Positions 4,000 to 50,119 of a stretch of DNA of 64,000 nucleotides are shown one piece after another. Under the pieces are notes generated by a model. It was not told the origin of the DNA. It did not search any database and saw nothing but the letters and a program-made list of their open reading frames with translations. The stretch's first letter is position 1. The number at the start of each line of letters is the position of its first letter. Made by a program: the position numbers and the translations under genes. The stretch is from Dielma fastidiosa (GTDB taxonomy: Bacteria; Bacillota_I; Bacilli_A; Erysipelotrichales; Erysipelotrichaceae), in NCBI RefSeq assembly GCF_000313565.1, contig NZ_HE578932.1:58516-122515 (forward strand). The letters are read 5' to 3'.

Positions 4000-4027
4000 T
4001 TGATTTAGCTGCTTATGCTATGATAAT
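4000..4027 (+). promoter_or_regulatory. Promoter of the fluoride-riboswitch transcript
   Basis: TTGATT (4000-4005), 16 bases, GATAAT (4022-4027). It lies just after the PII stop codon and directly before the fluoride aptamer, so the antiporter gene has its own transcript. Confidence 0.5.
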
Positions 4028-4028
4028 A

Positions 4029-4121
4029 ACAGGGAATGAAGTTCTCCCTCGGAATAAACCGAAACCGCGTAAAGCTGATGACTTCTGCAACTTTTTTGTT
4101 GTGGATCATCAGCTTTTTTTT
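4029..4121 (+). ncRNA. Fluoride riboswitch with terminator platform
   Basis: The region reads as a crcB-type fluoride aptamer: AGGGAATGAAGTTCTCCCT at its start, an AACCG segment, then GCTGATGACTTCT, the characteristic core elements. The expression platform is visible: AGCTGATGA (4073-4081) pairs perfectly with TCATCAGCT (4106-4114), followed by eight T. Fluoride binding should stop formation of this terminator and allow transcription of the antiporter. Identification is from remembered consensus plus the matching fold. Confidence 0.85.
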
Positions 4122-7001: not shown

Positions 7002-7054
7002 AAGATCATTGAAAAGCTATGCATTAAATCTATAAATTGCAACGATCAATGATG

Positions 7055-7082
7055 ATCCGACATCTCACTGTCGGATTTTTTC
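7055..7082 (+). terminator. Intrinsic terminator
   Basis: ATCCGACA (7055-7062) pairs with TGTCGGAT (7069-7076), followed by a T-run to 7081. It ends the XRE gene. Confidence 0.85.
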
Positions 7083-7098
7083 TTTCATCAGATTATTT

Positions 7099-7151
7099 CT
7101 GCAATTTTAAACAATTCAAAATTGCAGTTACTTTACATGTTTTTGCAATTT
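7099..7151. promoter_or_regulatory. Repeated AAATTGCA operator array before the PRD activator
   Basis: A perfect inverted repeat, CTGCAATTTT (7099-7108) and AAAATTGCAG (7118-7127), is followed by another TGCAATTT at 7144-7151. These arms bracket the -35 element. A further AAATTGCA lies at 7034-7041. The repeated half-site looks like a binding array for the DNA-binding PRD regulator encoded just downstream (inference). Confidence 0.55.
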
Positions 7152-7159
7152 GTTAGAAT
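7132..7159 (+). promoter_or_regulatory. Promoter of the PRD/amidohydrolase/DUF4310 operon
   Basis: TTTACA (7132-7137), 16 bases, TAGAAT (7154-7159). The following 7-gene unit has no other clear promoter before 14.5 kb. Confidence 0.5.
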
Positions 7160-7217
7160 TAAAACAAAATAAATCCCTGTTAAAATGAAAATGTAACAGG
7201 AGCAATTGAAAGAAGGG

Positions 7218-9125
7218 ATGACTGACGTGAAGCTTCAATTAAATAACCGCCAGATCGAAATATTAAAAAATCTGATTGCTGCTGGCACACCGATGGATAT
7301 AACGGTATTGATGAATCGCTTTGGCAAAAGTGAGCGAACGATTCGCTATGATTTGAATGAGATTCGTGAAGCACTTGAAAAGCAGGGGATTGATGTACGG
7401 ACGAAGGCTAAAAAGGGGTTTTATATCCCCGCTGAACAAAAGCCCAAGGCCAGCCGTGTCATTGCTGAGAATGGTCAGCAGGAGGAGCCGTCATTGCTGG
7501 ATGATTCCGATGAAACAAGGAATAATTCAATGCTGCTTTATCTGATGCTGCAAAGCAAGCCGATCAGCGCTGATGAGATTGCCGATACCTTCTATATCTC
7601 ACGTTCAACTGCAATCCGTATTCTGAATAACTTAGAAGCGGCTTTCAGCGGTATCCGCGTCAATTCACAAAAGGCCTATGGCTATCAGTTAGAGGCCGAG
7701 GAATTCATGCTGCGCAAGATTGTGACACAGCTATTGGTAAGCGCATTTAAAGGCAGCTATACACCGGAAGATTGGTATTTGCTGCTGCCGCGTATCCTTA
7801 AGGAAGAGATTTCAATGCTGACCATCAGCGATGTCTCACAGGCAATCAAAAAGGTGAACACACATTATAATGTCTGGCTCTCCAATACGGCTTTTATCAA
7901 TCTGCTGAGCTATTGTCTGATCCGCGATCTGCGGCTGCGCAAGGGTTTTACACAAAATAACCAAAAGGCAGCGGGCAGTGATTATACAATGGCGCTGCTT
8001 CAGGAGCTTGGCAACCGCGGTATCAATACGCTGGAAGTTCAATGGATGAATACGATTTTAAATTCTAACGGTATCTTTGTAAATCAAAGCTGTTTGGATC
8101 TGAATGAATTGGATCACGCGCTTGATGAGATGCTTGAGCTGCTGAAAGCAGATAAGCATCATCTGCCTTATGTCTTTGATACGATTACCTTATATGATGA
8201 TCTGTATGAGCATCTTCAGCATACGATCAATAAAGAATATCTGCATCTTGAAAATGATGAGAATCCTTTAATTGATGAATTGAAAGAAAATTACGCAGAT
8301 TTTTATTTATTAGCTAATGATTTTGCAGACATCTTTGAAAAGCATTTTCTGATGAAGCTCTCTGAGAATGAAATCAGCTATCTGGCAATTTATCTTTATA
8401 AGAATCTGATCAATCAGACAGCAAGCAACAAAAAGGTTTTGGTTGTCTGTGCGACCGGCAAGGGTTTAAGCAATCTGCTGACAACGCGTATCCGCAATGT
8501 GTTCCAGAATCTGACAATTGTCGGTTCGGTATCGCCTTATCAGCTTGACAACATCAATTTGTGGAAGGATATCGATTTTGTGATATCAACGATTCCAATC
8601 GCGCATTCAGCTTATCCGGTCATTAAGATTTCCCGAATCTTATCGATGGAAGATATTCAGCGGATACAGGAATTTCTGCATTATGGGAAATTCATTGATT
8701 CTATTCCGATGGATCACAGTAATTCAGCTTCCTTTAATGCTAAGAATGATCCCTTTGATTTATACAAGGATGAGCTAGATCCCAGCAAGACTGATTTGGC
8801 AGCGGCTTCAACCTTATACAGTAAGCTGCAGCTGACCTTGCTTGAATATATCAGCAAGCTGCCGCCTGAGGTTTCAATGGGTCAGGACGCGGTACTCGGT
8901 ATGCTGATTCATATGAGTATGGCAGTGCCTCGCTGGTTTTCTCAGCAGAATGAAGAAGATGAGGAAGAAATTATTGAGGCTTATTATAAATACCGCGATG
9001 AACAGAGTAATGTGTTTGATTTAATGGAAAAATTCTTCGCTCTTGTTGAGGAAAGCTTATTGATTACAATTCCGATTCATGAGCGGTACGCGTTTTTCCT
9101 CTATATATTCAACAAGGAGGTTTGA
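7218..9125 (+). CDS. PRD-domain transcriptional activator (BglG/MtlR/LicR type)
   Basis: About 635 residues. Two N-terminal helix-turn-helix segments are visible, KSERTIRYDLNEIREAL and ISRSTAIRILNNLEAAF. Two PRD-like helical domains follow in the middle, one with KHFLMKLSENEISYLAIY. Next comes an EIIB-like domain opening with VLVVCATGKGLSNLLTTR, which keeps the phosphorylatable Cys. A C-terminal acidic domain resembles a degenerate EIIA. This is the layout of DNA-binding PRD activators controlled by PTS phosphorylation, not of RNA-binding antiterminators, which lack two HTHs. The start is uncertain: ATG 7218 or GTG 7227, the latter being better spaced from AGAAGGG. It heads the operon, 3 bases before the amidohydrolase. 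Confidence 0.85.
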   Translation: MTDVKLQLNNRQIEILKNLIAAGTPMDITVLMNRFGKSERTIRYDLNEIREALEKQGIDVRTKAKKGFYIPAEQKPKASRVIAENGQQEEPSLLDDSDETRNNSMLLYLMLQSKPISADEIADTFYISRSTAIRILNNLEAAFSGIRVNSQKAYGYQLEAEEFMLRKIVTQLLVSAFKGSYTPEDWYLLLPRILKEEISMLTISDVSQAIKKVNTHYNVWLSNTAFINLLSYCLIRDLRLRKGFTQNNQKAAGSDYTMALLQELGNRGINTLEVQWMNTILNSNGIFVNQSCLDLNELDHALDEMLELLKADKHHLPYVFDTITLYDDLYEHLQHTINKEYLHLENDENPLIDELKENYADFYLLANDFADIFEKHFLMKLSENEISYLAIYLYKNLINQTASNKKVLVVCATGKGLSNLLTTRIRNVFQNLTIVGSVSPYQLDNINLWKDIDFVISTIPIAHSAYPVIKISRILSMEDIQRIQEFLHYGKFIDSIPMDHSNSASFNAKNDPFDLYKDELDPSKTDLAAASTLYSKLQLTLLEYISKLPPEVSMGQDAVLGMLIHMSMAVPRWFSQQNEEDEEEIIEAYYKYRDEQSNVFDLMEKFFALVEESLLITIPIHERYAFFLYIFNKEV

Positions 9126-9128
9126 CAC

Positions 9129-10265
9129 ATGTTGGAACTACTTATTAAGAATGGCAGTCTGCTGAGTCCGGTCAATGGTTATCATCAGGAAGTGATGGAT
9201 ATCCTGCTGAAAAATGGCCGGATTGAAAAAATCGCACCGCACATTGAAGCGGCAAACGCAGAGGTGATTGATGCTTCCGGCTGTTTAGTAACACCGGGTC
9301 TGATTGATATTCATGTGCATTGTTTCCCGCAATGTTCACTGGGGATTGAACCGGATGTATTGGGTATCAAACGCGGGGCAACGACGATCTTTGATGCCGG
9401 CAGCAGCGGCGCTTTGAATTATGAGACTTTCCGCAGTGAGTATATTGACCAAAGCAAAACAAAGGTCTTCACCTTACTGAATGTCTCTAAGCTGGGGCTG
9501 GCAGAACCGCATGAGCTTGATGATCTGAATAAAATTGATCGGCAAGCGCTGAAGGCGGCGGTTGCTAAGTATCCGGATAACATTGTGGGTTTGAAGGCCA
9601 GAGCCAGTGCCAGTGTGGTTGGCGCCATGGGGTTTGAACCGATTCGTCTGGCAGCTGAAATCGCTCATGAGGTTAAGCTGCCGCTGATGGTTCATGTCGG
9701 CAATTACCCGCCGGCTTTAAAAGATGTGCTGAATGTACTTGAAGCCGGTGATATCGTGACTCATGCTTATCATGGCAAAAAGGGCGGTATCTTAAATGCT
9801 GACGGTACTATTATTGAGGAAGCGCTGAACGCGCGCAAACGCGGGGTTCTCTTCGATATTGGACATGGGGTGGCAAGCTTCAGCTTTAAAACCTTTAAAC
9901 AGGCGATGACGCAGGACTTTGACTGTGATTTGATTTCAACCGATCTGCATGTGGAGAATTATCAAGGCCCGGTATACAATCTGGCGGCGGTACTTTCAAA
10001 ACTGCTGAATTGCGGTGAATCGCTTGAAGATGTTATCAGTAAGGCAACCAGTGTTCCGGCTAGACATTATCAGCTGAAGGGACTGGGAGAATTGAAAGAA
10101 GGCTTTATCGGTGATCTATCCGTGATGAAGCTGAGTGACTGTGATGAAGCGGTTGTGGATTCGATTGGTGATTCATTAACGCTGAAGCAGCGGCTGACTT
10201 TAGTCAATACGATTTATAGCAGGGGGGATGAAATTGAAGTATTTAGACACGATACTGAACAATAG
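9129..10265 (+). CDS. COG3964 amidohydrolase/deacylase-type metallohydrolase
   Basis: 378 residues, amidohydrolase superfamily. Metal ligands are in place: H62 and H64 (HVH), probable carboxylated K156 (GLKAR), H189, H212 and D272 (STDLH). The family is related to Enterococcus EF0837 and to proteins shown to cleave acetyl-(R)-mandelate. Annotation as adenine deaminase or dihydroorotase would be misleading. A role removing an acyl group from an imported amino-acid-sugar or hydroxy acid before the lyase step fits the neighbours (inference). The RBS is AAGGAGG. Its 3' end overlaps the small PRD gene by 38 bases. Confidence 0.85.
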   Translation: MLELLIKNGSLLSPVNGYHQEVMDILLKNGRIEKIAPHIEAANAEVIDASGCLVTPGLIDIHVHCFPQCSLGIEPDVLGIKRGATTIFDAGSSGALNYETFRSEYIDQSKTKVFTLLNVSKLGLAEPHELDDLNKIDRQALKAAVAKYPDNIVGLKARASASVVGAMGFEPIRLAAEIAHEVKLPLMVHVGNYPPALKDVLNVLEAGDIVTHAYHGKKGGILNADGTIIEEALNARKRGVLFDIGHGVASFSFKTFKQAMTQDFDCDLISTDLHVENYQGPVYNLAAVLSKLLNCGESLEDVISKATSVPARHYQLKGLGELKEGFIGDLSVMKLSDCDEAVVDSIGDSLTLKQRLTLVNTIYSRGDEIEVFRHDTEQ

Positions 10266-10611
10266 TGATGTCAGTGCGGAAGTAAGCGAAGAAATCGTAC
10301 GCTGCATGAAGCAGGTCGATGAGAAGCTTAAGCAGTTAAAGATTGAATTCAGTGATGAGAATGCGGAAATGGTGTTTACGAATCATTTAGTAGCACTTAC
10401 GAAACGTATTTTGAGTAAGGAATTTATTCCGGATCTTGATGATTCACTGATGGAAGGAGTTTCTTTACAGGCGATGCAGCTTTCAGAAGAATTGGTAAAG
10501 GATTTGTTTGAAAGCCATGGCTGTGAAGTAAATAAATCAGAGTTATTTTTAGTAGCTACTCATATTCAATTATATCTCGAAAACAGAAAGGATGGGAAAA
10601 ACAATGAGTAA
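10228..10611 (+). CDS. Stand-alone PRD domain protein
   Basis: 127 residues forming just one PRD-like helical domain, with no DNA- or RNA-binding part. A His at FTNHLVALTKR and another at VATHIQLYLENR occupy the places of the regulatory histidines of PRDs. It overlaps the amidohydrolase upstream and the SFCGS gene downstream, so it is tightly coupled to both. ATG 10228 abuts the G-rich ribosome site; TTG at 10234 is better spaced and may be the real start. In this conserved cluster it probably senses phosphorylation state, either as a soluble partner of the membrane system or as a modulator of the activator (inference). Confidence 0.8.
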   Translation: MKLKYLDTILNNSDVSAEVSEEIVRCMKQVDEKLKQLKIEFSDENAEMVFTNHLVALTKRILSKEFIPDLDDSLMEGVSLQAMQLSEELVKDLFESHGCEVNKSELFLVATHIQLYLENRKDGKNNE

Positions 10612-10969
10612 GGAAATTTTAGTAGTAATCGGTCATCGTATGGGTAAAGGTCAGGCGGTAGCCAGAGGTGTTGAAAAGGCAGGCGGTAAGGCAATCGTTA
10701 TTCCAGGCATGGCAGCGGATATGAAATTAGGCGATGTGATGCATGAAAATAATGCCGATTTAGGGATCAGCTTCTGCGGCAGCGGCGGTGCCGGCGCATT
10801 GACAGCTCAAAATAAATATGGCTATAAGGCTAAATCTGAGCTGCGTTCAATTGAAGCAGCCTGTACAGCTGTTGAAGATGGCTGTAAGGTAGTTGGACTG
10901 GGCTTCATGGATGTGGAAGACTTAGGTCAAAGACTTGTGGAAACATACCGTAAAGTACACGGAGAGTAG
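10604..10969 (+). CDS. Glycine-rich SFCGS-family protein
   Basis: 121 residues, soluble, with an N-terminal strand (EILVVIGHRMGKGQAV) and the family motif ISFCGSGGAGALTAQNKYGYK around residues 60-80. The fold looks like a small Rossmann or EIIB-like unit, and the Cys in SFCGS might be functional. It resembles the DUF2620/YhfU group, which also accompanies a membrane protein. I chose the ATG at 10604 because GAAAGGATGGG lies upstream. It is invariably found with DUF4310-4312 genes as far as I recall. I infer it is the cytoplasmic, ligand- or phosphate-handling subunit of that system. Confidence 0.8.
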   Translation: MSKEILVVIGHRMGKGQAVARGVEKAGGKAIVIPGMAADMKLGDVMHENNADLGISFCGSGGAGALTAQNKYGYKAKSELRSIEAACTAVEDGCKVVGLGFMDVEDLGQRLVETYRKVHGE

Positions 10970-10971
10970 TC

Positions 10972-11271
10972 ATGAGCGAGCAGCTGCTGAAGGAGATGGA
11001 TCATACTGTTACGGTGACAATGAGCGGTGACGGTATGGTTGATACGGTGGGGAAGATTTTTAATATGATGCGCAAGCAAGTATTCCAGGATATCAACAAG
11101 CCGATCATCCAGATGGATACTCAGGAAGTCTATTTTGACAAGGTGGATGTCACAGAAAAGAAGGAAGCTTTCCTGTTTATCTTCATGCCAAGAGTACGCC
11201 GTTATTACACGGTAACTGCCCGCATTGTATTAAAGGTTAAATATTTAGATGTCCAAGAGGAGGATAAGTAA
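10972..11271 (+). CDS. DUF4312-family protein
   Basis: 99 residues, soluble, mostly strand-like, with VTVTMSGDGMVDTVGKIFNMMRKQ near the N-terminus. It starts 2 bases after the SFCGS stop and ends 1 base before the DUF4311 start, so all three are translated in step. The function is unknown. Its size and position suggest a cytoplasmic accessory subunit of the membrane proteins that follow. Confidence 0.75.
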   Translation: MSEQLLKEMDHTVTVTMSGDGMVDTVGKIFNMMRKQVFQDINKPIIQMDTQEVYFDKVDVTEKKEAFLFIFMPRVRRYYTVTARIVLKVKYLDVQEEDK

Positions 11272-11991
11272 ATGAATGTCGAGGTTATACTTTATTCAGT
11301 AATTATTGGTGTTATCGGCGGCGGCTGTATCGCGGCCGGTGCTGCCAGAATGTTCCATGCACCTGAGATTCAGGCGATGGGCGCATTCAGAACATTGGGA
11401 GAATTTAACGCATGTAACGGTGACCCGGTTGCCCATTTCTCATTCGGGTTAGGGTTCTTCTTCTCAGCAGCGGCTTCTGCGTTAGGTGCCGGTGCTTTAT
11501 CAGGGGATGTATTCCATCGTATTGTACCAAACTGGGCGGCTGCATCATTGTTGGTTAAAAACCGTAATGTTGAAGAAACAATCCAGAATCCGCGCAAAAT
11601 GATGATGGCTGGTTCAGTAATCGGCGCCTTAATCGTTACCTTCCTTAATACGATGGCGACAATTATTCCAGAAAAGCTTTCTTTGATTGCGAATAACGTA
11701 TTGACACCAGCTACCGGTTGGATGCTGAATCCGGTCATGCCTGCTATTTTCTGGCTGGCAGCGATTGACGCCGGCCGTTACACAGGTATGTGGGGTACGA
11801 TTTTAGGCGGTATTTCCGCATTAGTATCAGGCAATGCGGTGCCAGGTATCGTATTAGGTATCCTGATTGGTAAATCAGCTGAAGAAAATGGTTATAAGAG
11901 CGGCATCGTTAAGGTTCTGATTGCAATTGTTGTGGTAATGTTCATTGCCATCGCATACTTCAGAGGCTTCTTTGCTAAGCTTGGTCTGTAG
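11272..11991 (+). CDS. DUF4311-family membrane protein
   Basis: 239 residues with about 6-7 membrane segments. Notable polar patches between them are GEFNACNGDPVAHFSFG (around residues 43-59) and VMPAIFWLAAIDAGRYTG. Glycine-rich helices fit a transport channel. GGAGG at 11260-11266 lies just inside the end of the preceding gene. With DUF4310 it forms a two-protein membrane core. It has no similarity that I can see to canonical PTS EIIC or to ABC permeases. The substrate is probably the compound handled by the amidohydrolase, DgaE and DgaF proteins. Confidence 0.8.
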   Translation: MNVEVILYSVIIGVIGGGCIAAGAARMFHAPEIQAMGAFRTLGEFNACNGDPVAHFSFGLGFFFSAAASALGAGALSGDVFHRIVPNWAAASLLVKNRNVEETIQNPRKMMMAGSVIGALIVTFLNTMATIIPEKLSLIANNVLTPATGWMLNPVMPAIFWLAAIDAGRYTGMWGTILGGISALVSGNAVPGIVLGILIGKSAEENGYKSGIVKVLIAIVVVMFIAIAYFRGFFAKLGL

Positions 11992-12003
11992 GAGGAACAA
12001 TCA

Positions 12004-12651
12004 ATGGAAAAGAAAACATTTGCACAAAAGGTTGATGCCTTTTTAATGAAAGATGAAACGTTTATTTTATTGATTATGGGAGCTGCGGCGGCAATCTTCG
12101 CAGGTACCTTTATGTATATTAAATTCGGCACGGGTGCATTTAATGATATCGCGATTGTACAAATGCTCAGAGATGGTCTTGACGGCGGTGATTTCGCGGC
12201 AGCGGCAGGCTTTGCGGCAGGCTTCTTGATTGCCCGTGTACTGGAAGGACCATTAGTAGGTATTCTTGATATCGGCGGTTCTTTGATGACAGGTGTTGGT
12301 ATCGGTATTCCGGCATTATTATTATCGATGGGTGTTACAATGCCATTTGACAATATTCTGTTCGCATTAGTAACCGGCGCCGTGATCGGCCTTGTCTTAG
12401 GTGCGGTAATCATCGGTATTCGTAAGCTGGTTCCGGATGGTGTTGCGGTTGGCGGTACTAGTATCATGATGGGTGCTGGTAATGCGACCGGCCGTTATTT
12501 GGGCCCAATGATTATTGTAGCTGCTTGTCAGTATAATGTTTGGGCTGGTATCGGTTCAATTATCGGCGGTGCGATTTTCTACAAATTAGGTAAAGAAATG
12601 ACCGGCGGCGCGATCCTTGGCGCTATGATTCTCGGCGCATTCTTCCTATAG
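12004..12651 (+). CDS. DUF4310-family membrane protein
   Basis: 215 residues with about 5-6 membrane segments, many Gly and Ala, and a conserved-looking core GGTSIMMGAGNATGRYLGP around residues 148-166. It follows DUF4311 by 12 bases with TAGGAGGAA as ribosome site. In my memory of these clusters DUF4310, 4311 and 4312 always travel together, so they likely form one complex. The membrane topology suggests transport. The mechanism of energising (PTS-like phosphorylation, ion coupling or other) is not evident. Confidence 0.8.
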   Translation: MEKKTFAQKVDAFLMKDETFILLIMGAAAAIFAGTFMYIKFGTGAFNDIAIVQMLRDGLDGGDFAAAAGFAAGFLIARVLEGPLVGILDIGGSLMTGVGIGIPALLLSMGVTMPFDNILFALVTGAVIGLVLGAVIIGIRKLVPDGVAVGGTSIMMGAGNATGRYLGPMIIVAACQYNVWAGIGSIIGGAIFYKLGKEMTGGAILGAMILGAFFL

Positions 12652-12662
12652 GATCAATTGCT

Positions 12663-13769
12663 ATGAGCATTTATTCAACGATCGGACTGCCAAGAGTGAT
12701 TAATGCGGCCGGCCGAATGACAGCACTTGGTGTTTCTACTCTCAGTGATGAGGTTGCCAGGGCGGTTGTCGAAGGCGGTCAGTCTTATGTGGTTATCGAT
12801 GAATTAATGGATAAAGCCGGCGAAATTATCGCTGCCTATACAAAAGCAGAAGCCAGTCTGGTAACATCCAGTGCTTCAGCGGGAATCTGCATGAGTGTGG
12901 CCGGTGTTATTTCTAAAGGCAAGAAATCAATTATTGAACGGCTTCCGGATGCGGGCGGCTTGGCGAATGAGATTTTGCTGATGAAGGGGCATGTCGTTCA
13001 GTTCGGCGCGCCGATTACCTCACTGATCCGCCTGGGCGGCGGTCAGCCTGTTGAGGTTGGCATGGCTAATGATGTCAGTGAAACCGATATGATTGAGGCA
13101 ATCAGCGATAAAACAGCGGCATTGCTTTATGTCAAAAGTCATCACTGTATTCAGAAGGGAATGCTCAGTCTTGAGAAAATGATTGAAATTGCGCATGCTC
13201 ATAATCTGCCGCTGATTGTTGACGCGGCAGCCGAAGAGGATATGTGCAAATATGTTGCAATGGGTGCTGATCTTGTTATTTACAGCGGTGCTAAAGCACT
13301 TGAAGCGCCGACTTCCGGTTTTGTAACCGGCAAAAAGCAGTATATAAATTATGCCAGAAAGCAGTATAATGGTATTGCCAGACCGATGAAAATCGGTAAG
13401 GAAGGCATCATGGGACTGTTAAAGGCAATGGAGCTTTATTTTAATAAAGATCATGCTGCCGAGGTTAAGCTGAATCTTGAAAGTGTTGCTTATCTGAATG
13501 AGCAGATCAATCAGATCAAAGGCTTAACGGCTATACAGGTTCAGGATGAGGCCGGCCGTGAGATTTATCGTTCTCAGGTCAGTGTTGATGAATCACTGAC
13601 TCATAAGTCAGCTTTAACCATCGATGCTGAGCTGCGTTCAGGGAATCCGGCGATTCACTGCCGCAAGCATTTGCTGAGTATGGGAATCTTATCCTTTGAT
13701 ACCCGGCCTTTGGGTAAGGGTGATAAGGAAATCATCGCTGCGCGTCTAAAAGAAATTGTGGAGGGTTAA
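12663..13769 (+). CDS. dgaE: DgaE-like PLP-dependent ammonia-lyase
   Basis: 368 residues of the SelA-like PLP fold. The Schiff-base lysine is probably K211 in YSGAKALEAPTSG. VDAAAEEDM supplies the Asp that contacts the PLP ring nitrogen. In Salmonella, DgaE turns D-glucosaminate-6-phosphate into 2-keto-3-deoxygluconate-6-phosphate plus ammonia. The next gene encodes the matching aldolase, which supports a similar dehydratase/deaminase step here. A paralogue lies at 14560. The exact substrate may differ, since no canonical glucosaminate PTS is present. Confidence 0.8.
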   Translation: MSIYSTIGLPRVINAAGRMTALGVSTLSDEVARAVVEGGQSYVVIDELMDKAGEIIAAYTKAEASLVTSSASAGICMSVAGVISKGKKSIIERLPDAGGLANEILLMKGHVVQFGAPITSLIRLGGGQPVEVGMANDVSETDMIEAISDKTAALLYVKSHHCIQKGMLSLEKMIEIAHAHNLPLIVDAAAEEDMCKYVAMGADLVIYSGAKALEAPTSGFVTGKKQYINYARKQYNGIARPMKIGKEGIMGLLKAMELYFNKDHAAEVKLNLESVAYLNEQINQIKGLTAIQVQDEAGREIYRSQVSVDESLTHKSALTIDAELRSGNPAIHCRKHLLSMGILSFDTRPLGKGDKEIIAARLKEIVEG

Positions 13770-13770
13770 T

Positions 13771-14505
13771 ATGTCAAATATCAATTATTATAACGATCGT
13801 GTATGTCTGAATGTACTGGCAGGTAATTTGGAAAACGCGAAGGAAATCTATGCGGCTGCCGAAAAGCATGTAGTTGTCGGTGTGCTGTCAGCGAATTATC
13901 CTGATGTGCCAAGTGCTGTCGAGGATATGAAGAAATACAATGAAGCTCTGGAAGGCAATCTTTCTGTAGGGCTTGGCGGTGGCAACCCGAATCAGTGGCG
14001 GGCCGTTGCTGAAATTGCTAAGGAAATCAAGGCTAATCATTTTAATCAGGTTTTCTCAGCCGTAGGCTGGACACGGGCGAACGTCGGTGACGACGGCTCA
14101 CATATCAATGCGCTGGTATCACCTACCGGCACACCGGGTTTAGTCAAAATTTCTACCGGGCCGTTAAGCAAAGACGCTGAGCCGGCATTGGTACCGGTTG
14201 CTACAGCTATTGCGATGATTAAGGAAATGGGCGGCAATTCCGTGAAATTCTTCCCAATGGGCGGTTTAAAGTGTAAAGATGAGCTGATTGCGGTAGCAAA
14301 GGCTTGTGCACAGGCTGACTTCATTCTTGAGCCAACCGGCGGTATCGATTTGGATAACTTTAAGGAAATCCTTCAAATCATTTTAGATGCTGGTGTAAAA
14401 CAGACCATTCCGCATGTTTATACATCAATTATTGATAAGGAAAGCGGCTGCACCCGGATCGAAGATGTAAAAACTTTAATGAGCATTGTGAAAGAACTTG
14501 CTTAA
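13771..14505 (+). CDS. dgaF: DgaF-like KDGP aldolase
   Basis: 244 residues of the KDGP_aldolase family (DUF1341/PF07071 by memory), a TIM-barrel class I aldolase group distinct from Eda. KFFPMGGLKCKDEL holds the candidate Schiff-base Lys, and EPTGGIDLDNF binds phosphate near the C-terminus. It would split 2-keto-3-deoxy-6-phosphogluconate into pyruvate and glyceraldehyde-3-phosphate. I use the ATG at 13771 after GGAGGG, one base beyond the lyase stop. It closes the operon before a strong terminator. Confidence 0.85.
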   Translation: MSNINYYNDRVCLNVLAGNLENAKEIYAAAEKHVVVGVLSANYPDVPSAVEDMKKYNEALEGNLSVGLGGGNPNQWRAVAEIAKEIKANHFNQVFSAVGWTRANVGDDGSHINALVSPTGTPGLVKISTGPLSKDAEPALVPVATAIAMIKEMGGNSVKFFPMGGLKCKDELIAVAKACAQADFILEPTGGIDLDNFKEILQIILDAGVKQTIPHVYTSIIDKESGCTRIEDVKTLMSIVKELA

Positions 14506-14513
14506 ATAAATCA

Positions 14514-14535
14514 AAGAGGCAATTCTGCCTCTTTC
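14514..14535 (+). terminator. Intrinsic terminator after the aldolase gene
   Basis: AAGAGGCA (14514-14521) pairs with TGCCTCTT (14526-14533) around a 4-base loop, then T-rich. Because the next gene has no obvious promoter, partial readthrough is likely and would lower expression of the second lyase. Confidence 0.75.
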
Positions 14536-14559: not shown

Positions 14560-15672
14560 ATGAATATCTATACAGAGAATGGTTTACATGGCGTTATCAA
14601 TGCTTCTGGCAGAATGACTAAGCTAGGTGTTTCAACTGTCAGTGAAGAGGTCGGCAAAACATTGGTTGAGGCGGCTGGCAATTATGTAGTCATTGATGAA
14701 TTGCTTGAATGGGCTGGCAAACGCATCGGCGAGCTGATCGGCTGTGAAGATGCCTGTGTTACTTCCAGTGCCTCCAGCGGCATTGCTTTGAGTGTGGCCT
14801 CGCTGATCTGCGGTGATGATCTGCAGAAGGTGCATCGTTTCAGTGAAACGGTGTTGAATACAAAAAAGCGTGAGGTTATCTTATTAAAGGGACATAATGT
14901 TGATTTTGGCGCGCCAATTGATTCTATGATTGAAATCGGCGGCGGCAAGGTTGTGGAAGTCGGTTATGCCAATGGTTCGAAAATTGAAGATATTACGCAT
15001 GCCGTTAATGAGAATACGTGTGCGATCTTCTTTGTGAAGAGTCATCACTGTGTTCAAAAGGATATGGTTGATGTGCAGACGGTTATTAAAGCTGCCAATC
15101 GGCTTAATATTCCATGTATTGTCGACGCGGCGGCAGAAGAGGATCTGTCTAAGTATGTACAGATGGGCGCTGATTTTGTCTGCTATTCAGGTGCTAAAGC
15201 ATTATCCGGACCGACCAGCGGCTTTGTCGCCTGCGCGCACAGTAAAGATGCGGCGAATATGCGGCTTCAATACAAGGGCATTGGCCGGGTTATGAAAATC
15301 GGCAAGGAAAATACGATGGGCTTGGTGAAGGCGATTGAAATCTATCAGCGCAATCACGGTTATGTGCCAACGGTTACTTATGAAGATTTAAAAGCATTCA
15401 CGGAAAGCTGCAATACCATTAAGGGAATCACAGCTTCGATTATTCAAGATGAAGCAGGACGCGCTATTTATCGCAGTAAGATCAATGTCAGCGAGGCTGA
15501 ATACGGCATGAATGCCAAAGCGCTGGTGAAACAGCTGCAGGCTCATGATCCGGCAATCTATACCCGCGATTATCAGGCTAATATCGGTTCAATCGCGATT
15601 GATCCGCGGCCTTTGAAAAATAAAGGCGAGTTGGATACGATTTTTGAAGTATTAAAGAAATTAGGTAAATAA
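14560..15672 (+). CDS. Second DgaE-like PLP-dependent lyase
   Basis: 370 residues, paralogous to the product of 12663 along its whole length. It shares INASGRMTKLGVSTVSEEV, the VDAAAEEDL segment and YSGAKALSGPTSG with probable PLP Lys at K213. A short insertion near residues 88-105 distinguishes it. The sequences have clearly diverged, so this is an old duplication or a second acquisition rather than a recent copy. It sits behind the terminator, set apart from the main operon. A second amino-acid-sugar epimer or a product of the amidohydrolase are possible substrates. Confidence 0.75.
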   Translation: MNIYTENGLHGVINASGRMTKLGVSTVSEEVGKTLVEAAGNYVVIDELLEWAGKRIGELIGCEDACVTSSASSGIALSVASLICGDDLQKVHRFSETVLNTKKREVILLKGHNVDFGAPIDSMIEIGGGKVVEVGYANGSKIEDITHAVNENTCAIFFVKSHHCVQKDMVDVQTVIKAANRLNIPCIVDAAAEEDLSKYVQMGADFVCYSGAKALSGPTSGFVACAHSKDAANMRLQYKGIGRVMKIGKENTMGLVKAIEIYQRNHGYVPTVTYEDLKAFTESCNTIKGITASIIQDEAGRAIYRSKINVSEAEYGMNAKALVKQLQAHDPAIYTRDYQANIGSIAIDPRPLKNKGELDTIFEVLKKLGK

Positions 15673-15677
15673 GTTTG

Positions 15678-15697
15678 CCCCGGGATATTTCTCGGGG
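15678..15697 (+). terminator. Weak terminator-like hairpin
   Basis: CCCCG (15678-15682) and CGGGG (15693-15697) flank an A/T-rich loop. No long T-run follows, so termination is doubtful. Confidence 0.35.
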
Positions 15698-15729
15698 TAT
15701 ACTGTTTCTGTAAGCAAAGGAGGCAATTT

Positions 15730-16908
15730 ATGGATAATTTTGTATTCTATAACCCAGCTAAAATCATTTTTGGCAAGGATCAGGAAAAAACAGCAGGCGA
15801 ATGGATCAGAAAATATGATGGACATAAGGTATTGCTGCATTACGGCGGCGGTTCAATTAAGAAAAACGGTGTCTATGATACGATTATCGCTTCTTTAAAA
15901 GCGAATGATCTGCCTTTTGTTGAGCTTAGCGGTGTGGTGCCGAATCCGCGTTATTCTCTGATTCAGGAAGGCATCGCATTATGCAAACGTGAAGGTGTCG
16001 ATTTTATTTTAGCTGTCGGCGGCGGCAGTGTCATCGATTCGGCGAAAGGCATTGCGGCAGGTGTATTGCTAAATGAAGATGAAGATTTATGGGAAGATTA
16101 TTATATGTTTAAACGCGGCCCTGAAAAAGCGCTGCCGCTAGGTACGGTATTAACAATTCCGGCTACCGGTTCAGAAAGCTCGCGCAGCTCGGTAGTAACT
16201 AATGAAGCCACTCATTTTAAGCGTTCCATGGCTGCTGACTGCATGATTCCCAAGTTTTCAATCATCAATCCAAAGACGCATTATTCACTGCCGCCTTATC
16301 AGATTGCCTGCGGCTGTGCTGATATTCTGGCTCATCTGATGGAACGTTATTTCACACCCACTGAAAATGTTGATTTCACTGATCGGATGCTGGAGGCAAG
16401 CATGAAAACCGTGATCAACTACGCGCCGCTGGCTATCAAGTATCCAACTGATTATAATATCCGGGCTGAAATAGCGTGGGTGGGAACCATCGCCCATAAT
16501 GGCTTATTAAATACCGGCCGCCTTGGTGATTGGGCAAGTCATGATCTGGAACATGAATTAGGTGCCATTTATGACATCTATCATGGTGAGGGATTAGCGA
16601 TTACTTTCCCGGCATGGATGAAATATGTTTATAAACAGAATCCAAAACGCTTTGTGCAATTTGCGCAGCGGGTATGGGATGTAGAATTTTCAGCGGAACA
16701 GGAGGAAAGAATCATTCTTGAAGGCATTCATCGTCTTGAGCGCTTCTTTACTGAATTAGGCTTGCCGATCCGCTGTTCACAGCTGCATATCGATCATTCA
16801 AGATTTAGAGAAATGGCTCAGAAAATCATGGTTAACCGCGATCATGAGGGTGAATTCATGAAGCTCTATGAAGAGGACTGCTATCAGATTTACTGTTTGT
16901 CTGAATAA
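15730..16908 (+). CDS. Iron-containing alcohol dehydrogenase (YqhD/butanol dehydrogenase type)
   Basis: 392 residues of the group III alcohol dehydrogenases. These use NAD(P)H and Fe2+ or Zn2+ to interconvert aldehydes and alcohols. AVGGGSVIDSAKGIAAG binds the dinucleotide. Metal ligands are probably the Asp in CGCADILAHLMERY, the His in the same segment, and two His in HDLEHELGAIYDIYHGEG. Overall pattern resembles butanol dehydrogenases. It follows the second lyase by 57 bases with AAAGGAGG upstream. It may reduce an aldehyde from the pathway, for example glyceraldehyde, or act independently. Confidence 0.9.
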   Translation: MDNFVFYNPAKIIFGKDQEKTAGEWIRKYDGHKVLLHYGGGSIKKNGVYDTIIASLKANDLPFVELSGVVPNPRYSLIQEGIALCKREGVDFILAVGGGSVIDSAKGIAAGVLLNEDEDLWEDYYMFKRGPEKALPLGTVLTIPATGSESSRSSVVTNEATHFKRSMAADCMIPKFSIINPKTHYSLPPYQIACGCADILAHLMERYFTPTENVDFTDRMLEASMKTVINYAPLAIKYPTDYNIRAEIAWVGTIAHNGLLNTGRLGDWASHDLEHELGAIYDIYHGEGLAITFPAWMKYVYKQNPKRFVQFAQRVWDVEFSAEQEERIILEGIHRLERFFTELGLPIRCSQLHIDHSRFREMAQKIMVNRDHEGEFMKLYEEDCYQIYCLSE

Positions 16909-23559: not shown

Positions 23560-23760
23560 AGGAATGGCGATGAATTAGAGTAGTAATGGAAGACAGCATT
23601 AAAGAGAGCTGATGGCAGGTGTGAATCAGTATGCGAAATCTGTGAACTCGCTAAGGAGCCTTGGCTGATCCGGCGTTATCGGATAAATGAGGGCATGCCT
23701 TTAGGCATGAACTAAGGTGGTACCGCGTAATTTAACGTCCTTAGAACAGGACGTTTTTTT
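23560..23760 (+). ncRNA. T-box leader (leucine-responsive)
   Basis: The T-box core AAGGTGGTACCGCG is at 23714-23727. It is followed by a terminator with arms AACGTCC and GGACGTT and seven T, ending at 23760. Upstream is the long stem I region. GAACTC at 23644-23649 places CTC (Leu) as the likely specifier codon, agreeing with leuS downstream. Uncharged tRNA-Leu should bind and favour the antiterminator. Confidence 0.92.
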
Positions 23761-49916: not shown

Positions 49917-49935
49917 TTTTAAAATTTAATAATTG

Positions 49936-50119
49936 ATCTCCGAGCCATTCAATCCTAAAGACCCCCACGGATGTCTGGCCTAAGCATCAGCTTAAGGGCT
50001 TTGCTGGAAACAGCAAAACCTTCCATCTTTGAAAAGGAGCAGTCATTTTAAAGACGTCTGGTAATCAGATGATGCTTAAGGCTGCTTTGCGCTCAAAATG
50101 CGTAAAACAGCCTTTTTTT
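49936..50119 (+). ncRNA. Moco/Tuco-type riboswitch with terminator
   Basis: Conserved-looking elements are CTCCGAGCC (49938-49946), GACCCCCACGGATGTC, and a GAAA-tetraloop hairpin TTGCTG-GAAA-CAGCAA (50001-50016). The expression platform shows AAGGCTG (50088-50094) pairing with CAGCCTT (50108-50114), then seven T. GCCTAAGCATC (49978-49988) can pair with its local partner or with GATGCTTAAGGC (50081-50092), giving mutually exclusive folds. It lies directly before molybdopterin-cofactor genes, the known setting of this RNA class. Excess cofactor would be expected to stop transcription of the synthesis genes. Confidence 0.75.

Follow-up and report, generated by a model that had tools for sequence, protein, structure and literature searches.

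We describe a conserved nine-gene cassette of Dielma fastidiosa in which four proteins, SFCGS, DUF4312, DUF4311 and DUF4310, probably import an amino-sugar acid, a transport role that we infer. Since this set accompanies parts of the PTS machinery without known PTS transport proteins, it may constitute a PTS-type uptake system built of unrelated parts. The protein families of the module are widespread but functionally uncharacterised. If the proposal is true, PTS phosphate can power or control a permease unrelated in all its parts to the known Enzymes II, PRD domains act outside transcription regulators, several domain-of-unknown-function families gain a substrate class, and the E. coli YhfT-YhfU-YhfY set gains a first testable role.

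A nine-gene cassette carries the four-protein module

The cassette occupies positions 7206-14505 of the window, the 64,000-nucleotide stretch of D. fastidiosa DNA analysed here, and encodes a regulator, a deacetylase, a free PRD, SFCGS, DUF4312, DUF4311, DUF4310, DgaE and DgaF. The features of the region are as follows.

7054-7077, + strand: terminator-like hairpin 5' of the cassette (9 pairs, then a T-rich tail; consensus match only)
7132-7159, + strand: promoter-like site 5' of the regulator, with TG before the second hexamer (10/12 consensus matches; the number of such sites in this region is not above that in shuffles)
7206-9125, + strand: transcription regulator with HTH (HTH_11), PRD (PF00874, 51.5 bits), EIIB-like domain (PF02302, 30.5 bits) and a C-terminal domain with a conserved His
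9129-10265, + strand: amidohydrolase/deacetylase of the EF_0837 type (NF006689, 403.4 bits against a cut-off of 371)
10228-10611, + strand: free PRD domain protein (PF00874, 27.5 bits against 23)
10604-10969, + strand: SFCGS protein, predicted RpiB/LacAB fold, with invariant Cys62 counted from a start at 10592 (PF14272, 188.3 bits)
10972-11271, + strand: DUF4312, small soluble beta-alpha-beta-beta protein, weakly dodecin-like in prediction (PF14189, 59.2 bits)
11272-11991, + strand: DUF4311, polytopic membrane protein (PF14188, 342.3 bits)
12004-12651, + strand: DUF4310, polytopic membrane protein with a GAGNATGR motif (PF14187, 272.8 bits)
12663-13769, + strand: DgaE-family PLP ammonia-lyase (TIGR01437, 469.2 bits against 385.3)
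13756-14505, + strand: DgaF, 2-keto-3-deoxy-6-phosphogluconate aldolase (equivalog NF047796, 389 bits against 300)
14513-14534, + strand: terminator-like hairpin 3' of the nine-gene cassette (9 pairs; consensus match only)
14560-15672, + strand: second DgaE paralogue, not one of the nine conserved genes (TIGR01437, 446 bits against 385.3)

The five genes from the free PRD to DUF4310 had been singled out in a preliminary description, with the SFCGS ORF at 10592-10969, and all five were recovered there on the + strand, each Pfam match exceeding its curated cut-off. The start of SFCGS is more likely at 10604, where ATGAGTAAG follows a Shine-Dalgarno-like AAGGATGGG, in agreement with the starts of its homologues. 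Pfam scans also bore out the claim that the cassette holds no ABC or TRAP transporter and no EIIC gene. The DgaE assignment is to the broader TIGR01437 subfamily, a narrower model scoring 463.3 bits against 600. The same gene set underlies families TIGR03577-TIGR03583 (EF_0829-EF_0839 / AHA_3910-3917), which are named as hypothetical only; their descriptions assign no function and do not state the PTS link, the folds, the fusions or the relation to yhf. Among these models, EF_0830, EF_0832, EF_0833 and EF_0839 scored above cut-off in the cassette and EF_0829, EF_0831 and EF_0837 below.

The module is conserved as a unit and always accompanied by a PRD

Gene order in the cassette is nearly unchanged across 60 genome loci, and the arrangement is therefore not due to chance. 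SFCGS, DUF4312 and a PRD were found in all 64 loci that hold DUF4311 together with DUF4310, so that no homologous module lacking a PRD protein came to light, in keeping with the association first proposed. An apparent absence of the PRD from six loci was rejected because the domain is there fused to the deacetylase (at five loci to the deacetylase, at one to the deacetylase and SFCGS). The proposed association with catabolic enzymes is looser: a few modules stand alone without any enzyme gene, yet these retain the PRD regulator. The Paenibacillus modules are of the stand-alone kind. A tie between stand-alone modules and DgaF by genome co-occurrence was considered and rejected, since 29 of 40 genomes of this genus have DgaF and its presence elsewhere in Paenibacillus genomes is uninformative. 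Module-bearing taxa include many Bacillota, Salmonella, Klebsiella, Aeromonas and Bartonella, and the D. fastidiosa genome itself has three copies.

Most related operons carry a PTS permease or a kinase

In Salmonella, the dga operon, which like the cassette has DgaE and DgaF homologues, encodes the PTS DgaABCD that imports D-glucosaminate as the 6-phosphate (PMC9529869). DgaABCD are known EII proteins, whereas the cassette has four unrelated proteins in the transporter position and adds a deacetylase and a free PRD. Operons of the type PTS EIIC-MupG-amidohydrolase-DgaE-DgaF-PfkB have three enzymes in common with the cassette but carry a classical EIIC permease and a kinase where the cassette has the module. 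Most DgaE/DgaF operons without the module hold a PTS EIIC (6 of 11) or a PfkB kinase. PfkB is encoded in 7/11 of these operons versus 0/55 module-only cassettes (Fisher P 4e-7, with kinship ignored). The occurrence of EIIC or a kinase in module-free operons, together with the lack of a kinase in module-only cassettes, lends indirect support to the transport role put forward earlier. Replacement is not strict, since module and EIIC-MupG lie side by side in four Enterococcus loci.

Cassettes without PfkB may be served by a kinase encoded elsewhere in the genome. The Arg triad at the DgaE phosphate site (position taken from PMC9529869) is retained in all module and PfkB operons alike; it is therefore not discriminating and was rejected as a means of telling the two apart.

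PTS proteins and phospho-acceptor sites accompany the module

At 11 of 60 loci an HPr gene adjoins the module; the arrangement varies among them, and stand-alone modules are included. About 1.1 such loci would be expected by chance (79 HPr matches in 77.5 Mb), an approximately ten-fold enrichment in a count that ignores kinship. In Bartonella plasmid copies, HPr and EI are fused into one protein of 671 aa encoded directly after the regulator. Both EI and HPr are present in 19/19 module genomes; for comparison, a set of 196 genomes from one class, two of the 19 among them, has EI in 83. Homologues of the regulator keep the phospho-acceptor residues H336 (53/54), C415 (54/54) and H569 (54/54), and in the free PRDs the first His and an Arg are invariant (68/68) and the second His is found in 61/68. 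Adjacent HPr genes, HPr-EI genes and conserved phospho-acceptor sites give good, though indirect, support to a connection of the cassette to the PTS, as had been proposed. The only EIIB-like domain in the cassette lies within the regulator, and Pfam and NCBIfam searches found no free EIIA in the cassette; an EIIA_2 domain was seen only inside some regulators.

The role of HPr and EI may be confined to the regulator and a PRD switch. DUF4311/DUF4310 would then be an ordinary ion-coupled permease, HPr would phosphorylate the regulator and the free PRD, phosphorylation of the latter would turn transport or enzyme activity on or off, and the substrate would receive its phosphate from a kinase encoded elsewhere. 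We regard this as a real possibility, though one that probably does not hold. PRD domains are regulatory targets of HPr and EII, and their fusion with the deacetylase hints at an enzyme as the controlled target; EIIA, EIIB and EIIC subunits are all missing from the cassette, as a purely regulatory PTS input would have it. Such an input is harder to reconcile with the lack of PfkB from every module-only cassette, and with yhf operons that hold a free PRD although their regulator, YhfZ, has no PRD match.

SFCGS is predicted to adopt an isomerase fold

SFCGS had been suggested to be an EIIB-like part. Its predicted model (pLDDT 92) instead matched RpiB-family structures, with Z of 8-12.3 for 23 entries, all above the first unrelated fold at Z 7.7. 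Because the predicted fold is that of RpiB/LacAB isomerases, we rejected SFCGS as an EIIB subunit with a phospho-Cys. Alignment with RpiB keeps the active-site Cys and the Cys-Gly-rich loop, but the sequence scores 14.8 bits against PF02502, below the curated 24.7, and there are no aligned equivalents of the RpiB DH motif, His99 region and C-terminal Arg tail. SFCGS appears distantly related to E. coli YhfU (DUF2620), with which it aligns over its full length, Cys included (pairwise hhalign, E 1.9e-4, probability 47.7, 113 columns).

The predicted fold and conserved loop would also suit a pathway enzyme, an RpiB-type sugar-phosphate isomerase or epimerase, in place of a transport subunit. This seems improbable to us: the protein is without the His99 region and Arg tail, it is retained in stand-alone modules that have no enzyme gene, and its apparent relative YhfU is found among quite different enzymes, where a PRD and a membrane protein are nonetheless present too.

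The membrane pair matched no known transporter in sequence and fold searches

DUF4311 carries the invariant polar residues R26, Q34, R40, E44, N46, D51, H55, H82, R83, N126 and N188, and invariant residues of DUF4310 are N47, R78, E81, D89, T96 and N160. Neither protein matched EIIC or EIID families in Pfam, nor did NCBIfam place the window proteins or 29 DUF4310 members in these families. A fused DUF4312-DUF4311-DUF4310 model had no match among PDB folds at E < 0.001, its top membrane matches being MATE, MurJ and CLC at a TM of about 0.1. No EIIC appears among the matches listed, but this carries no weight, as the second list is taken up by DUF4312. The search, weak for the membrane part, gave no sign that the complex folds as a known transporter family, the outcome that would have told against the earlier proposal. 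That the pair is instead a sensor, an efflux system or an enzyme of the membrane is very unlikely. The failure of known transporters to match by sequence or fold would suit such a role; against it stand the operon position, which PTS permeases occupy in related operons, and the invariant polar residues of both proteins. A depositor's KEGG note makes DUF4310 a relative of MtrC; this was rejected, as neither Pfam scans of 29 members nor a PDB profile search gave an MtrC match.

For the model of DUF4312 (residues 6-92), 18 dodecins head the list of structural matches with Z 6.5-7.6 over 60-70 residues (the highest, 7.6, over 65), below the guide value of Z 8.

Proposed uptake pathway and comparison with E. 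coli yhf

With moderate confidence, we propose a PTS-linked uptake system whose membrane permease consists of DUF4311 and DUF4310 and in which dodecin-like DUF4312 and SFCGS, with its predicted RpiB fold and retained active-site Cys, would be the cytoplasmic subunits. The substrate would be a 2-amino-sugar acid similar to D-glucosaminate, either N-acetylated or free. Phosphate from HPr would enter at the free PRD, acting as phosphocarrier or switch, and the imported compound would already be phosphorylated on reaching the enzymes. The amidohydrolase would then deacetylate it, DgaE would deaminate the product and DgaF would split it to pyruvate and glyceraldehyde-3-phosphate, while the PRD/EIIB-type regulator would sense phosphate flow and turn the cassette on.

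A bolder and rather doubtful version would have group translocation proceed without any EIIA, EIIB or EIIC homologue, phosphate passing from HPr to the PRD His, to the SFCGS Cys and on to the sugar acid entering through DUF4311/DUF4310. Under this reading, such a system would have been assembled a second time, independently, in the E. coli yhf operon (YhfY, YhfU, YhfT). Like the cassette, the yhf operon combines a free PRD, an RpiB-like small protein and a polytopic membrane protein; unlike the cassette, it lacks DUF4312 and has other enzymes and a regulator without a PRD match. Profile comparison showed no sequence relation of YhfT to DUF4310 or DUF4311, and YhfT as a DUF4311-DUF4310 fusion was rejected for this lack of similarity.

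Our literature search found no paper describing DUF4310-4312 or the SFCGS protein. Single genes of STM4440-4448 are mentioned in one paper's expression table.

Organization of the cassette

The five genes and families of the preliminary description were borne out: PRD, SFCGS (PF14272), DUF4312, DUF4311 and DUF4310 each score above the Pfam cut-off, although SFCGS probably starts at 10604 instead of 10592. They lie within a nine-gene cassette. The observation is real and of interest.

7054, terminator-like hairpin flanking the cassette
7206-14505, cassette in the order regulator, EF_0837-type amidohydrolase, PRD, SFCGS, DUF4312, DUF4311, DUF4310, DgaE, DgaF
14513, terminator-like hairpin flanking the cassette

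After the cassette (14560-16908) come a second DgaE paralogue, with a terminator-like hairpin on either side, and an alcohol dehydrogenase-like gene. The genome carries three copies of the SFCGS-DUF4312-DUF4311-DUF4310 module, one without DgaE/DgaF close by. Rfam matches in the window, all above gathering score, are a fluoride riboswitch (4023-4094), a T-box leader (23561-23745) and a molybdenum/tungsten (Moco) riboswitch (49926-50055).

Distribution of the module

Scanning 84,980 species genomes yielded 60 loci (L-numbers denote fetched loci), in which gene order is almost constant; DUF4312, SFCGS and PRD are present in 64/64 loci having both membrane genes. PRD is fused to the amidohydrolase in L037, L039, L041, L044 and L045, and a single 636-aa frame (L040:6909-8816) joins amidohydrolase, PRD and SFCGS, possibly through sequencing error, since its source is a metagenome-assembled genome. 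Stand-alone modules (regulator, PRD, SFCGS, DUF4312, DUF4311, DUF4310) occur in Paenibacillus (L056, L064, L066) and Vagococcus (L071) with none of the cassette enzyme genes adjoining; regulator and PRD therefore belong with the membrane module, not with the enzymes. Co-occurrence of stand-alone modules and DgaF across genomes was considered and proved uninformative.

In the alphaproteobacterium Bartonella (sp. HY406, L143; sp. HY761, L146) the cassette is on 56-kb plasmids, adjoined by the type VI secretion genes tssA and tssM in the opposite transcription direction. In three small genomes (L099, L100, L137), translated with TGA as tryptophan, the DUF4310 frame reaches ~550 aa, over double its normal length. 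The Salmonella cassette (L153, STM4440 onward per record) lies beside myo-inositol genes; Salmonella also has the dga operon, which has been described separately. In Klebsiella, a lactonase gene (PF10282; L144:13504-14658) between DgaF and the regulator fits an aldonic acid as substrate.

SFCGS is an RpiB-fold protein

The SFCGS AlphaFold model, of high confidence (pLDDT 92.4), has RpiB/LacAB isomerases as its top Foldseek matches in the PDB (E 4e-5). With VIA-align, 23 RpiB-family entries reach Z 8.0-12.3, the first unrelated entry 7.7. Sequence matches to RpiB are weak (PF02502, E 0.028; NCBIfam, 0.0023), and both families have a Cys-Gly-rich loop. Because fold and sequence agree, we assign SFCGS to the RpiB fold, with a kept Cys, and abandon its proposed role as an EIIB-like part. 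Cys62 (counted from 10592) is invariant, as are R16, D43, K75 and R85. Alignment to RpiB gave no counterpart of its active-site residues beyond the Cys loop, nor of its C-terminal tail; SFCGS is probably not a plain isomerase. It also aligns with E. coli YhfU (DUF2620; 113 columns, pairwise E 1.9e-4).

DUF4312, DUF4311 and DUF4310 were modelled as one chain, for which the two stops separating these in-frame genes were ignored. The DUF4312 part matches dodecins (65/66 residues, Z up to 7.6, slightly below the guide value of 8). The membrane part gave no convincing structural match, and DUF4310 and DUF4311 profiles found no solved or named relative, which is not proof of a new fold.

Association with the PTS

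Free PRDs share an invariant first His and an invariant Arg (68/68); in the regulator, the PRD His, the EIIB Cys and the C-terminal His are conserved. The yhf operons, too, have a free PRD alongside YhfU and the membrane protein YhfT, despite a regulator lacking a PRD match, which suggests that it is the transporter that the free PRD serves.

HPr is encoded within or close to the cassette at L024, L029, L031, L041, L043, L046, L051, L056, L064, L066 and L077, compared to a chance expectation of ~1 locus in 60 (79 HPr matches, 77.5 Mb, 19 module genomes). Enzyme I (EI) accompanies HPr at L041 and L051; at L051 these are the sole HPr and the main EI of the genome. An HPr-EI fusion accompanies the cassette on both Bartonella plasmids. 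EI and HPr were found in 19/19 module genomes tested, but EI in only 83/196 genomes of one class, two module genomes included, with absences inflated by incomplete genomes. The proposed PTS link gains new indirect support from gene association and kept phospho-residues, while SFCGS drops out as its EIIB-like part.

Proposed substrate phosphorylation and transport

Among 11 DgaF loci without the module, PF02378 EIIC is present in 6 and a PfkB kinase in 7, and MupG (6-phospho-N-acetylmuramidase family) accompanies EIIC. PfkB was found in 0/55 module cassettes having DgaF and no EIIC (Fisher P 4e-7, uncorrected for relatedness). DgaE retains the Arg triad of its phosphate site (site as given in PMC9529869) in operons of either kind. 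On the simplest reading, the substrate would reach module cassettes already phosphorylated. Most of the data would be explained almost equally well if HPr and PRD were purely regulatory and a separate kinase phosphorylated the substrate. The EIIC/PfkB pattern lends new indirect support to the putative transporter role first proposed. Four Enterococcus loci have module and EIIC-MupG together.

A conserved operon of PTS EIIC, MupG, amidohydrolase, DgaE, DgaF and usually PfkB recurs at L128, L123, L127, L047, L052, L053, L065 and L145, often including a small hydrophobic protein of ~88-100 aa; perhaps it handles a 6-phospho-disaccharide with an amino-sugar acid.
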